This document shows positions 27,404-31,791 of a stretch of 64,000 bases of DNA, piece after piece. The notes beneath the pieces are model-generated. The model saw only the letters and a program-made list of their open reading frames with translations, was not told where the DNA came from and made no database searches. Source of the stretch: Caenorhabditis elegans (Eukaryota; Nematoda; Chromadorea; Rhabditida; Rhabditidae). The stretch is taken from the NCBI RefSeq assembly GCF_000002985.6, contig NC_003281.10, positions 6,696,001-6,760,000 of the forward strand, in the 5' to 3' direction. Within the stretch, counting starts at the first letter, position 1; each line of letters begins with the position of its first letter. Made by a program: the position numbers and the translations under genes.

Positions 27404-29516
27404 ATGCCGTCCTTCTGGACGCAAATTTCGGGACCACGGCTTTATGGAATTTTTGGACAACCCAATCGACAGGAACCAACACTGGAAAATCTCGGAAACA
27501 CCGTCATATCGTTTTCTGCAGGTTATATTATTTTATGAAGCATAACCTTTTCCAAACTTGTTTTTAGGAATTTACTACATTGCCAGTTCATTAGCTTTTG
27601 GCCCCGTAATATTATGTTACTTGTACAGTCGAGACTGGCTCACACCAGCTGGAATGCTGACAATTCTGAAATATGCCGGATATTTAACACTAATCGGTTA
27701 TGGAGCAAGAACATTCGGTCGGCTCTTTGACGAAACAAACTCGAGATTTTTAGATATTTGGGAAAACGAAAAAAACAAGGTATCAGTTGAAATCTTTATG
27801 TTTATGTATTAATTACGTTTCAGAAGGATGACAACAGTCATGCAGCACTAAAGAAGTACGACTTTGAACTTCTAGACGTGATTCCCGATTTTGTAGCTCG
27901 CCCCAATTCGGATTTATGGCATTTAAAACCAGAAGTCGCTGAAGCCGGCGTTGTTACTCGCGGTCTGGCGAGTTGGGCGATTCACGCATTTGGAAGACAT
28001 TTGATTTATCCCGGATCAATGGCACTTTTGAAATACATGATGAGACCAAATTTGAATGCTGCACGAAAGCTTCTGGTTCAAAATAAGGTGAACGACTTTA
28101 AAAACAAAAACAATTTAAGTTCAATAAAAAATTCTGACACGGGCAGGATTCGAACCTGCGTTCGGTTAGAACCGTTTGAGATCAAGTGTCTCATGCCTTA
28201 AACCACTCGGCCACCGTGTCAGTGGTTCTGAATTTATGGCAGGCTGTAAACGGGACAGTATAATAGTAGATTATGGTTGTAAATGAATACAGTGTTTTAA
28301 TCCTTGTGTCAAATTCTGAAAAAAAAACAAAATTTCTTTCCTGAAAGTAGATTTCTAGCTTTTGAAGAAAAAACGGTAAAACATAATTTTGCAACTAATT
28401 AATTTGCATTATTTTCAGAATGGGCAGCGTTTGTGGATCAAATCGTCAGAAGGAGACACTCTCGATGCGATGTTTTTGAGAGGCACTAATCAATCACAGG
28501 ATCTTATAATATGTTTTGAAGGAAATGCCGGATTTTATGAAATTGGAGTAATGAACTCTCCTGCTCAATTGGGATATACGGTAAAACAATCTTTTTCGTA
28601 GCCAATTTCATTTATTCGACTTTTCAGACTCTCGGCTTCAATCTTCCGGGCTTTGGAGAAAGTACGGGACTTCCATACGCAGTAAACACTTTAGCAGCTG
28701 CAGACGCAGTAATGCAGTACGCTATTCAAGTTCTTGGATATCGCCAGGAGAATATTGTTCTTTTTGGGTGGTCGATTGGCGGGTTCCCAGTTGCTTGGCT
28801 CGCGTCCAACTATCCAAGTGAGTATAATTTATGCTATAAAAAATCTTCTAATATATAATTTTTAGATGTAAAAGCAGTTGTATTGGATGCCACATTCGAC
28901 GACTTACTGCCACTTGCGCTGTTCAGAATGCCGACGGTACAAAATTGAAAAAAAAAATTGAGGTTAATGTTTCCATTTCAGTTCTTCTCTACCATTGTGG
29001 AGCATGCGATCAGAAACCATATGAATCTTCAAATCGATAAATTGGTATGTTAAGAAACCTTTAAAACTGCTCGAAAGACTACTTTAATTTCCTAATTTTC
29101 AGCTCGCTCGTTACAAGGGACCAATCCGTCTGATTCGACGCCTCCAAGAAGAGATTCTGACCACTGCAGTTGATGATCAACCCGAGAATGTTCGACGAGC
29201 AACAAATCGAATCAATTGGCTACTCAAATCGATCATCAAAGACAGACATCCCGAGTTGATTCAAAATTTGGAACCACAAGTAGATCGTTGGCTCGACATG
29301 ACTCCAACCGAACGGCTCATGCATTCGGGAGTCAGCTTGCGCGAAGAATCAACACAAAGAAAACGTCTTTTTGATGCATGTAATCACTATTTGATTGATT
29401 TCGACGCAAATCACGTTACTCCTCTCGATCCACAGTAAGTTTCTCATTTCCAGTAAATCTTTTCATCGCAAAGTTTCAGATACTTCAACATTCCGCATGG
29501 CCGTGATACCTTCTAG
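27404..29516 (+). CDS. ABHD16-type alpha/beta-hydrolase (phosphatidylserine lipase family)
   Basis: Nine exons (27404-27521, 27568-27779, 27824-28087, 28419-28580, 28628-28817, 28866-28936, 28982-29044, 29103-29434, 29480-29516) give 482 residues. The N-terminal half has two hydrophobic segments (YIASSLAFGPVILCYLYS and LTILKYAGYLTLIGYGA) typical of membrane-anchored ABHD16A/BAT5. The hydrolase fold shows the oxyanion region (LIICFEGNAGFYEIG), the nucleophile elbow GWSIGG (Ser in exon 5), and the downstream LDATFDDLLPLA where the acid residue is expected. A C-terminal HVTPLDPQ may supply the His. ABHD16A produces lysophosphatidylserine in mammals. The third intron contains an antisense tRNA-like gene. 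Confidence 0.92.
28136..28220 (-). tRNA. Class II (long variable arm) tRNA-like gene, anticodon CUU, nematode V-arm type
   Basis: The minus strand forms a complete cloverleaf: 7-bp acceptor stem (GACACGG/CCGTGTC), a D arm GCCGAGTGGTTTAAGGC, anticodon stem TGAGA/TCTCA, a V arm CGGTT-CT-AACCG, and T arm GCAGG-TTCGAAT-CCTGC. The 7-nt anticodon loop CACTTGA places CUU at 34-36, which would read a Lys codon, but position 33 is A rather than the near-universal U. The base after the acceptor stem is A, as in Leu tRNAs. A T-run (AATTTTTT) follows the 3' end and could terminate Pol III. It lies antisense in an intron of the ABHD16-like gene. Confidence 0.8.
28223..28250 (-). promoter_or_regulatory. 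Conserved 5' flank of the first V-arm tRNA
   Basis: This 28-nt block, 2 nt upstream of the tRNA, matches the block at 31079-31106 at 26 of 28 positions. It reads (plus strand) TGGTTCTGAATTTAT, then GCAGGCTGTAAA after one variable base. Confidence 0.7.
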
Positions 29517-29794
29517 GCAACCATCTCAATTATCAACTCAATTGTTCACCTTTCTCTTTGTCCCAACTCCCCAATCGCTTGTACATTTAAATAATAATTG
29601 TATTTAGAATAGTCGATAATATTGGGTGCAATATTTCTTTATTTATCGAATGTCAAAAGAAAGCTAGTATTTATTTGTATTTATTTCATTGTTTTTTAAA
29701 TAGTCAAGCAATGAGTCATGCGCTCTTCGATACCTTTTGTTATAGTTTTAATGTTCAGAAAATTCAATATTAATAACTCGATATTCAGACTGAC

Positions 29795-31791
29795 ATGTCG
29801 TTCATCACAGCATTTCGGGAACGAGTTTTCATTGCATCTGGAGACTTGATCCGTACGTTCAGAATCAGCGAAGAAACTGAATTGAAGGTGTTTCATATTT
29901 TTAAACTTGAAATTTCAAAATTTTATTTCAGAACTTCATTAGTTGGTCAAAAATCAACCCGGAACGGATTCAAAAGCCTTCCTTCGATATTGAAAAAGAA
30001 TTGAAAGCTGTTGAGAAAAGAGTGGTCAGTCCTAAAATAATCGAAACGTTTGTTCTGATAGTATTTTTTTGTAGATTCTGTGTCTCGCTCATTCCAATGT
30101 CTTGACCACTCATGGCCGGCGACTTGTTGCAGTTGGAACAAACGAGAAACAAATCCACGTCTTCGAGTATTTCGTTAATGACAAAGGAGATATCGTCACA
30201 GCGGAACACATTGTTACCTCTGTCGTTCCAAAAGCTCCAACAGCAATTGTTTTCGATAAAGAAGATGCTTATGTGGTTGTTGGCGATCGTGCTGGAGACG
30301 TTCACAGATTTTCGGTTCTAAATGGAAGTGCTATTGAAATGGCTGGAGCTATCTCTATGATTCTTGATGTTGCATTCAGTCCTGATGGAAAGAGACTGCT
30401 GATGGCGGATAGAGATGAAAAAGTCCGAGCGCTTAGATACCCAGCGGTTGGTTTACTTTTAAAAACCATTATTCACCCGAAATAGTGTTCTCAGACCTCT
30501 GTCATTGACTCATTCTTCCTTGGTCACACCGAGTATGTCAAAACATTGGCGGTGCAGGATAATGACTCACTATGGAGTTCTGGTAAGTTATCTCAGTTCC
30601 TTTCTTTCAAATGCTTAGAACTTCAGGAGGAGACAAGAACCTATATAACTGGAGCATCGCAAAATGTTCAGCTCCTCGTAGAACGCTTGATCTGTCCCAG
30701 TTTGACGCTCCCATTCGCAAGATTTCAATCAATTTGCAGCACAAGGTGTGTTAAGATTGTACAATACTAAAACGCAGTTTGTATGCTTTCAGAAAATCGC
30801 TGTCATTTTCGAGAAAATTGAGACTGTCGTGATTGTTGATCTCAACCAAGAATCATTGCAAACCACTTCTGTATCAATCGTGGGCGAATCGCAATGTCTC
30901 GATATTGCTTCTACGAAAGACTACTTCGCTGTCCTCGGAAGGTAACAATTTAATTGCAAAAATGATAACATATAGCTTTACAAAATAATTTGCCACGGGC
31001 AGGATTCGAACCTGCGATCGGTTGCCCGAAAGAGATCAGGAGTCTCACGCCTTTGACCACACTCGGCCACCGTGGCGATGGTTCTGAATTTATAGCTGGC
31101 TGTAAATGTGGTTGTCTATTATATTAACCAGTACATGTACATGTAATTATCTATATTAAAAATATTTGTTGGATCGATAATTCTTGTGCCTCCCTGTTCT
31201 ATTCTCACTTTTTTTCTAATTCTGGGATATCACACGGATAGGAGTGCGTTCAATTAGGAAATAGTGCTGCATGTATGACAGACGCAGACGCGGACACGGA
31301 TTTTCAAACAAATCGTTTGCTCCCCCAAGACATCTTGGTGTGATTTATTGTAGTTTTTTTGATGCTCTGAACAGATATATTGAAAGATATCACAGCCGTC
31401 AGCCACAAAGAAAATGAAAGATGGAGGAAACGAAAAGTAAAAGGATCATTGATGTTTCAGATCTACAGTACACCTCATCGATCTCAACAATATGGAACAA
31501 AAGTTTGTACCGATTGATGAAGAATTGACGATCACACTGACTTCTACCAATGATGCAATTGATAATCTCTTCAAAAATGTTACTCACAATAACCAGCAAG
31601 AGTATGAGAAACGGAAGGTGAGGGTTTTAATCATTTGTAGTTCAGAAGAAGTCCATGTTTCTAGAAGATTAGTTACTTTAAAAAAAATGTTTCAGGCCGA
31701 TAAGTTTGAGCAAATCGAGAAAAAGAAGAGAAGACTCAATGAAGACATTAACGGCGACGATGGTGAAGGCCCAGGACCATCAAACTCATAA
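29795..31791 (+). CDS. WDR4/Trm82-like WD40 protein (subunit of tRNA m7G46 methyltransferase)
   Basis: Eight exons (29795-29887, 29932-30024, 30075-30446, 30495-30582, 30627-30745, 30793-30941, 31461-31617, 31696-31791) give 388 residues. WD-like blades are seen in [34 protein letters not shown] and [20 protein letters not shown] (with AMISMILDV before it), then [12 protein letters not shown] and [20 protein letters not shown] is where Trm82/WDR4 proteins have their conserved GH...V blade. The C-terminal tail is Lys-rich then acidic. WDR4 binds the catalytic METTL1 to methylate G46 of tRNAs. The sixth intron (519 nt) carries an antisense V-arm tRNA-like gene. The start is 279 nt after the ABHD16-like stop and is preceded by ATATTCAG, compatible with a downstream operon position. 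Confidence 0.82.
30992..31076 (-). tRNA. Class II (long variable arm) tRNA-like gene, anticodon CCU, nematode V-arm type
   Basis: Minus-strand cloverleaf with acceptor stem GCCACGG/CCGTGGC, anticodon arm TGAGA-CTCCTGA-TCTCT (one T-T mismatch at the stem base), V arm TCGG-GCAA-CCGA, and T arm GCAGG-TTCGAAT-CCTGC. The anticodon is CCU, which reads the Arg codon AGG, with normal U33. Ordinary Arg tRNAs have short variable loops, so the long V arm and the A that follows the acceptor stem (Leu-type discriminator) are atypical. The 3' side continues AAATTATTTT, a possible Pol III terminator. It lies antisense inside an intron of the WDR4-like gene. Confidence 0.85.
31079..31106 (-). promoter_or_regulatory. 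Conserved 5' flank of the second V-arm tRNA
   Basis: A 28-nt block 2 nt upstream of the tRNA, nearly identical to 28223-28250 (two differences). On the plus strand it reads TGGTTCTGAATTTAT followed by GCTGGCTGTAAA after one variable base. Confidence 0.7.

Follow-up and report, generated by a model that had tools for sequence, protein, structure and literature searches.

A neighbouring pair of class II tRNA genes with CUU and CCU anticodons in Caenorhabditis elegans: probable leucine-type members of the nev-tRNA family

What becomes of a transfer RNA (tRNA) whose body is of the leucine type and whose anticodon reads a lysine or an arginine codon? This question is raised twice by one stretch of Caenorhabditis elegans chromosome III (C3:6696001-6760000; the 64-kb window, to whose numbering the two genes and their surroundings refer). 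A pair of class II tRNA genes with the non-Leu/Ser anticodons CUU and CCU had been predicted on its minus strand from the sequence. The pair is real: ARAGORN and Rfam (model RF00005) each detect two tRNA genes in the whole window, and these are the CUU gene and the CCU gene, called by ARAGORN as tRNA-Lys(ctt) at 28134-28221 and tRNA-Arg(cct) at 30991-31076. We propose, with a probability of about 0.6, that they are two neighbouring members of the nev-tRNA family, encoding leucine-type tRNAs that would be transcribed by RNA polymerase III (Pol III), most likely leucylated, and translationally quiet.

The original prediction had suggested a covariance-model check, and RF00005 (gathering score 29) matched both genes well above its gathering score, the CUU gene at 55.4 bits (E 3.2e-9) and the CCU gene at 55.2 bits (E 3.6e-9). 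These scores rule out a chance cloverleaf and fall within the span covered by tRNA-Leu genes of this genome that look intact, namely 62.0 (L051), 61.2 (L035), 56.6 (L021), 55.2 (L020) and 52.9 (L054); three decayed-looking Leu copies scored 56.1 (L052), 50.5 (L034) and 40.4 (L038). A stem-by-stem partition bears out the perfect acceptor and T stems, the variable (V) arm, the A discriminator (A73) and the Lys and Arg anticodons described beforehand for both genes. All 24 stem pairs form in the CUU gene (acceptor 7, D 3, anticodon 5, V 4, T 5) and 23 of 24 in the CCU gene, where the sole exception is a U27.U43 mismatch. With one mismatch in 48 pairs, the two genes do not show the broken helices or box elements of a pseudogene, and the cloverleaf is intact in both apart from U27.U43 in the CCU gene and position 33 in the CUU gene. 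The A-box/B-box pattern used for tRNA-Leu genes matches both alike. The spans first given, 28136-28220 and 30992-31076, locate the genes correctly but omit the discriminator, which adds one base to each. Also overlooked were the A33 of the CUU gene, the U27.U43 pair and long D loop of the CCU gene (at least two bases longer than in the seven sequences aligned with it), a leader common to both genes, and their intronic antisense position.

The nearest relatives of the pair are themselves nev genes. Pattern searches of the genome for tRNA-Leu-like bodies gave 36, 52 and 12 matches (overlapping sets that include some chance matches), and a tRNA-Ser-like pattern gave 38, several of them not tRNAs. 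From these non-exhaustive searches, 12 nev-type genes were assigned by inspection: four Ile-UAU genes, an Ile copy with a 5-base loop, three Gly-CCC genes, the CUU and CCU genes (a single copy each among the matches found), and genes at C4:11721149 and C1:8781165. Identity was 85% between the CUU and CCU genes, 87% between the CCU gene and the C4 gene, and 85% between the CCU gene and Ile. We therefore rejected the idea that the pair could be Lys and Arg tRNAs with an artefactual V arm, as their closest relatives are class II nev genes. In a Ser-rooted tree of 17 class II sequences, with anticodons masked except in the C1:8781165 gene, the six nev families formed one branch with moderate support (80/91; 75% of 200 bootstrap trees); the four Ser rows formed their own branch (94/96), and the Leu sequences did not form one group. 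When four nev sequences were aligned with four Leu sequences, both bases had changed in 18 of the 24 stem pairs. Within the C. elegans genome, to which the one-branch result applies, the nev-type genes look to have one origin. The membership of the pair in the nev class that had been put forward is thus supported by the long V arm, the non-Leu/Ser anticodon, A73, a branch in common with the Ile-UAU and Gly-CCC genes, and the common leader. According to one account, the nev-tRNAs of C. brenneri, one of them of the Arg type, cluster within the class I tRNAs (PMC4810241).

Some of these relatives are unusual in their own right. The short-looped Ile copy (L011, C1:9558792) has lost two bases in its anticodon region relative to nev-tRNA-Ile and is otherwise alike in body and leader. 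The gene at C4:11721149 (L010/L041) is nev-like with perfect stems and an 11-nucleotide anticodon loop, and the ARAGORN call is either Pro or His, the latter with a 4-nucleotide intron. A minus-strand match at C1:8781165-8781231 (L050, C1:8780900-8781500) is nev-like with intact helices, the same leader, a 6-nucleotide anticodon loop and G73, a discriminator that would predict serine over leucine charging.

Each gene of the pair appears to be a complete Pol III gene, with A and B boxes, a T-run terminator and the family-specific leader TTCAGAA. This element lies directly upstream of 12 of the 12 nev-type genes, and in one representative of each of the six families it occupies -12 to -6, with the C of CAG at exactly -10. 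Visual comparison of the CUU and CCU leaders shows their likeness reaching back to about -31. Among 128 distinct tRNA loci, TTCAGAA was found within 25 nucleotides upstream of 11, each of them nev-type (two of the three Gly genes count as a single locus), and was absent from 117. Two of the latter are empty-body program artefacts, which leaves 115 controls, a few more of them with implausible introns. TTCAGAA was thus found within 25 nucleotides of none of the 115 other tRNA loci, tRNA-Leu included, in a control set mostly of Leu, Ser, Lys, Ile, Arg and Tyr genes that left out Gly, Val, Pro, Glu, Asp, Gln, Cys, Met, Phe and Trp. Since nev genes are related, the Fisher value for these counts cannot be taken as a fair probability. 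The argument rests on a core that stayed unchanged where its surroundings drifted: identity between families is 1.0 for TTCAGAA, 0.36-0.37 across the preceding 23 bases, and on average 0.24 farther upstream. TTCAGAA probably lies at the transcription start, so that Pol III transcription would begin within the leader. The presence of the leader in all 12 nev genes and in none of the 115 other loci suggests separate transcriptional control. The text of PMC4300185, a study of nev-tRNAs, does not contain the words upstream, promoter, leader or flanking, and neither the leader element nor the A33 loop was found in the limited set of open-licence papers searched. PMC5372738 and PMC11415595 yielded nothing on nematodes. 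A noncoding RNA promoter motif, UM3, has been described together with PSEB and GTATA (PMC2527325). We also considered whether TTTTCAG/A in the leaders could be a 3' splice site and rejected it: the invariant part continues through GAA, the Lys, Arg and G73 genes do not preserve the T-tract, and the host genes in the window are on the opposite strand.

The anticodon loops are less regular than the helices. Position 33 of a tRNA is a U that makes the U-turn (PMC5372741, PMC5311481), and U33 is present in every other partitioned class II sequence whose loop has 7 bases. The 7-nucleotide loop of the CUU gene (CACUUGA) carries A33 and so lacks the U33 of a decoding-competent elongator tRNA; the loop of the CCU gene (CUCCUGA, 7 nucleotides) has it. 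Abnormal loops, with A33 or with 5, 6 or 11 bases, occur in 4 of the 12 nev-type genes. Both window genes could instead be decaying young duplicates, pseudogenes that are still tRNA-shaped and whose loop changes are the first visible damage. A33, U27.U43, the single copy of each gene and the frequency of abnormal loops all fit such decay. Some Leu copies decay too, and one of the four examined, L034, resembles the odd nev genes in combining an 8-nucleotide loop with intact acceptor, anticodon and T stems, so the contrast between the groups is not absolute. Nevertheless, every pair of the acceptor, D, anticodon and T stems is intact in the four loop-defective nev genes, whereas three of the four decayed-looking Leu copies from the same searches have stem mismatches. 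Moreover, pair 2-71 has changed on both sides between the window genes (C-G versus A-U), and families with chance-like identity in their farther flanks have the same leader core. We therefore regard decay as unlikely, though an explanation to be taken seriously.

The leader could also have been merely inherited by descent within a small duplicated unit and not kept by selection. Ile copies on two chromosomes (the C1 copy of L007 and the C6 copy of L006) have exactly 32 upstream bases in common and diverge beyond, as expected of a copied unit. The other positions of this block have nevertheless drifted between families while TTCAGAA remained unchanged at a fixed distance, and we consider simple inheritance doubtful. 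That loops vary where helices do not hints that the nev body is kept and decoding is not, although the numbers are small and the loops may simply have broken last. Damaged loops in 4 of 12 genes with intact helices suggest that decoding may not be under selection. An improbable extension of this thought is that all members of the family are Pol III RNAs with a leucine body and their own start element, maintained for a folded, chargeable body and not for decoding; helices and leader would then be held while anticodon loops drift, and if so, LeuRS-binding RNAs or tRNA-fragment RNAs would be examples of what such genes provide (LeuRS, LysRS and ArgRS being the leucyl-, lysyl- and arginyl-tRNA synthetases).

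Under our proposal, the two genes would differ in how well they decode. The low-level codon misreading that had been suggested for both is weak for the CUU gene and possible for the CCU gene. Because A33 stands in place of U33, the CUU tRNA would be poorly accepted in the ribosomal A site and would decode AAG weakly if at all, which makes Lys-to-Leu misreading unlikely. It is a single gene set against 29 Lys-CUU-type matches (one of them, C6:14486219, only partly scored by Rfam). The CCU gene faces three ordinary CCU-type matches; these counts come from 35 genome matches, the remaining three of which were of neither type. With its normal loop, the CCU tRNA could deliver leucine at AGG at a low rate, so Arg-to-Leu misreading is possible there and AGG codons are a good place to look for it. 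A stronger version holds that leucylated CCU (and CUU) tRNAs actively insert leucine at AGG (and AAG), perhaps under stress. The loop of the CCU gene and its gene ratio of 1 to 3 are compatible with this, as is a finding quoted in PMC4300185, that nev-tRNA-Gly is used by a cell-free system from insects. The A33 of the CUU gene and its ratio of 1 to 29 speak against it, and the worm proteomics described for the Gly member found no Gly-to-Leu peptide and no mistranslation (PMC4300185). Active mistranslation therefore seems quite improbable.

The amino acid carried would be leucine. Among the aligned sequences, the pair is Leu-like and not Ser-like in A73, in the D stem GCC/GGC and in G37; on these features a Ser-type identity was set aside as the less likely, though overall identity hardly separates Leu from Ser. 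All 11 distinct Ser-type bodies retrieved end in G73, and the four Ser rows of the tree have A37. By analogy with the published Gly and Ile members, the RNA would fold as a class II tRNA, gain CCA, and be charged by LeuRS through A73 and its leucine-type body, not through the anticodon. For those two members CCA addition, nuclear export and low abundance have been reported, and in vitro they were charged with leucine only (PMC4300185). Human leucine identity resides in A73 and tertiary contacts, A35 is required in vitro and marginal in vivo in yeast, and changing A73 to G73 can convert leucine to serine identity (PMC9976931). That LysRS and ArgRS recognise U35 and C35 and charge these tRNAs partly or mainly correctly, and thus harmlessly, is quite improbable, though a real rival for just this pair: lysine determinants include anticodon bases, and a UUU anticodon gives lysine identity to other human tRNAs (PMC9976931), but the pair has a class II body with A73 of the kind charged only with leucine in the Ile and Gly members (PMC4300185).

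Several observations weigh against our proposal. ArgRS reads C35 as a cytosolic arginine determinant; with U35 and C35 read by LysRS and ArgRS, the pair is a less certain case of leucine-only charging than the Gly and Ile members. The A33, the U27.U43 mismatch and the longer D loop might just as well be signs of decay. Overall identity of the CCU gene is 0.69 to Leu-UAA, its best Leu match, and 0.68 to two Ser-UGA sequences. The Ser-rooted tree does not fix where the nev branch joins and does not decide the parent, and the tree program marked as unsure the long branch that carries the G73 gene. Finally, a review argues that nematodes acquired long V arms on more than one occasion (PMC4810241).

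The nev class is already known, and the CUU and CCU genes are further members of it. Both were probably already listed in Hamashima 2012. Judged by anticodon and V arm, the UAU and CCC genes of the genome would be the published nev-tRNA-Ile and nev-tRNA-Gly (Hamashima 2012, 2015). The window genes share with these the class II body, A73, a V region of 15-17 nucleotides, the leader and the branch, and differ from them in the CUU and CCU anticodons, in A33 (CUU gene), in U27.U43 and the longer D loop (CCU gene), and in being single copy. With cytosolic tRNA-Leu they have in common the long V arm, A73, the D stem and G37; tRNA-Leu differs in its anticodon and V-arm sequence and, in the leaders examined, has no TTCAGAA within 25 nucleotides. 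Cytosolic tRNA-Ser resembles the CCU gene in class II shape and differs in G73, A37 and its separate branch. Ordinary tRNA-Lys(CUU) and tRNA-Arg(CCU) carry the same anticodons but are class I with U33. The family as a whole is puzzling: mischarged in vitro and reported to be conserved, yet without detectable mistranslation (PMC4300185).

Table 1. Positions of the two nev-type tRNA genes, their flanking elements and the introns that hold them, in window coordinates
Feature	Position	Strand	Details
nev-tRNA, anticodon CUU (Lys codon AAG)	28135..28220	-	A73, 17-nt V region, 4-bp V stem, loop CACUUGA with A33
Leader element TTCAGAA, CUU gene	28226..28232	-	-12..-6
3' trailer of CUU gene, Pol III terminator-like	28120..28134	-	T6 run; trailer GAATTTTTTATTGAA
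Intron of alpha/beta-hydrolase gene holding CUU gene antisense	28088..28418	+	GT...TTTTCAG, frame continuous across
nev-tRNA, anticodon CCU (Arg codon AGG)	30991..31076	-	A73, 15-nt V region, 4-bp V stem and GCAA loop
Leader element TTCAGAA, CCU gene	31082..31088	-	-12..-6
3' trailer of CCU gene, Pol III terminator-like	30976..30990	-	T4 run; trailer AATTATTTTGTAAAG
Inferred intron of WDR4/Trm82-like gene holding CCU gene antisense	30942..31460	+	30941-31461 join keeps open frame to stop

Both genes lie antisense within introns of protein-coding genes (Table 1). In C. elegans, 47% of tRNAs are intronic and have lower Pol III occupancy than the others; those opposite to the host strand have higher occupancy than same-strand ones, and host promoters affect intronic tRNAs (PMC4999229). 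The host of the CCU gene, a WD-repeat gene at about 29777-31791 on the plus strand, resembles WDR4/Trm82, the subunit of the tRNA m7G methyltransferase that has no catalytic role. One exon-sized open reading frame of it was searched, and WDR4 (E 1.7e-11) and yeast Trm82 (8.9e-6) are among its relatives of solved structure; the higher-ranking matches were designed or generic WD40 proteins.

The searches also brought up other Pol III-type features of the genome. A tRNA-Ser(CGA)-like gene (L076, C3:6158958-6159039) has a partial copy of its own 5' portion ahead of it, so that there are two tandem A boxes, the second of which lacks the usual 5' acceptor strand in front of it. Clusters of an A-box/B-box pair (TGGCGCAGTGGGATTTTC ... 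GGGGTTCGAGTCC), unlike ordinary tRNAs, occur at C1:12.675-12.683 Mb, C5:19.35-19.56 Mb, C5:20.03-20.05 Mb and elsewhere, and may be Pol III promoters of the UM2 type described for small nucleolar RNAs (PMC2527325).

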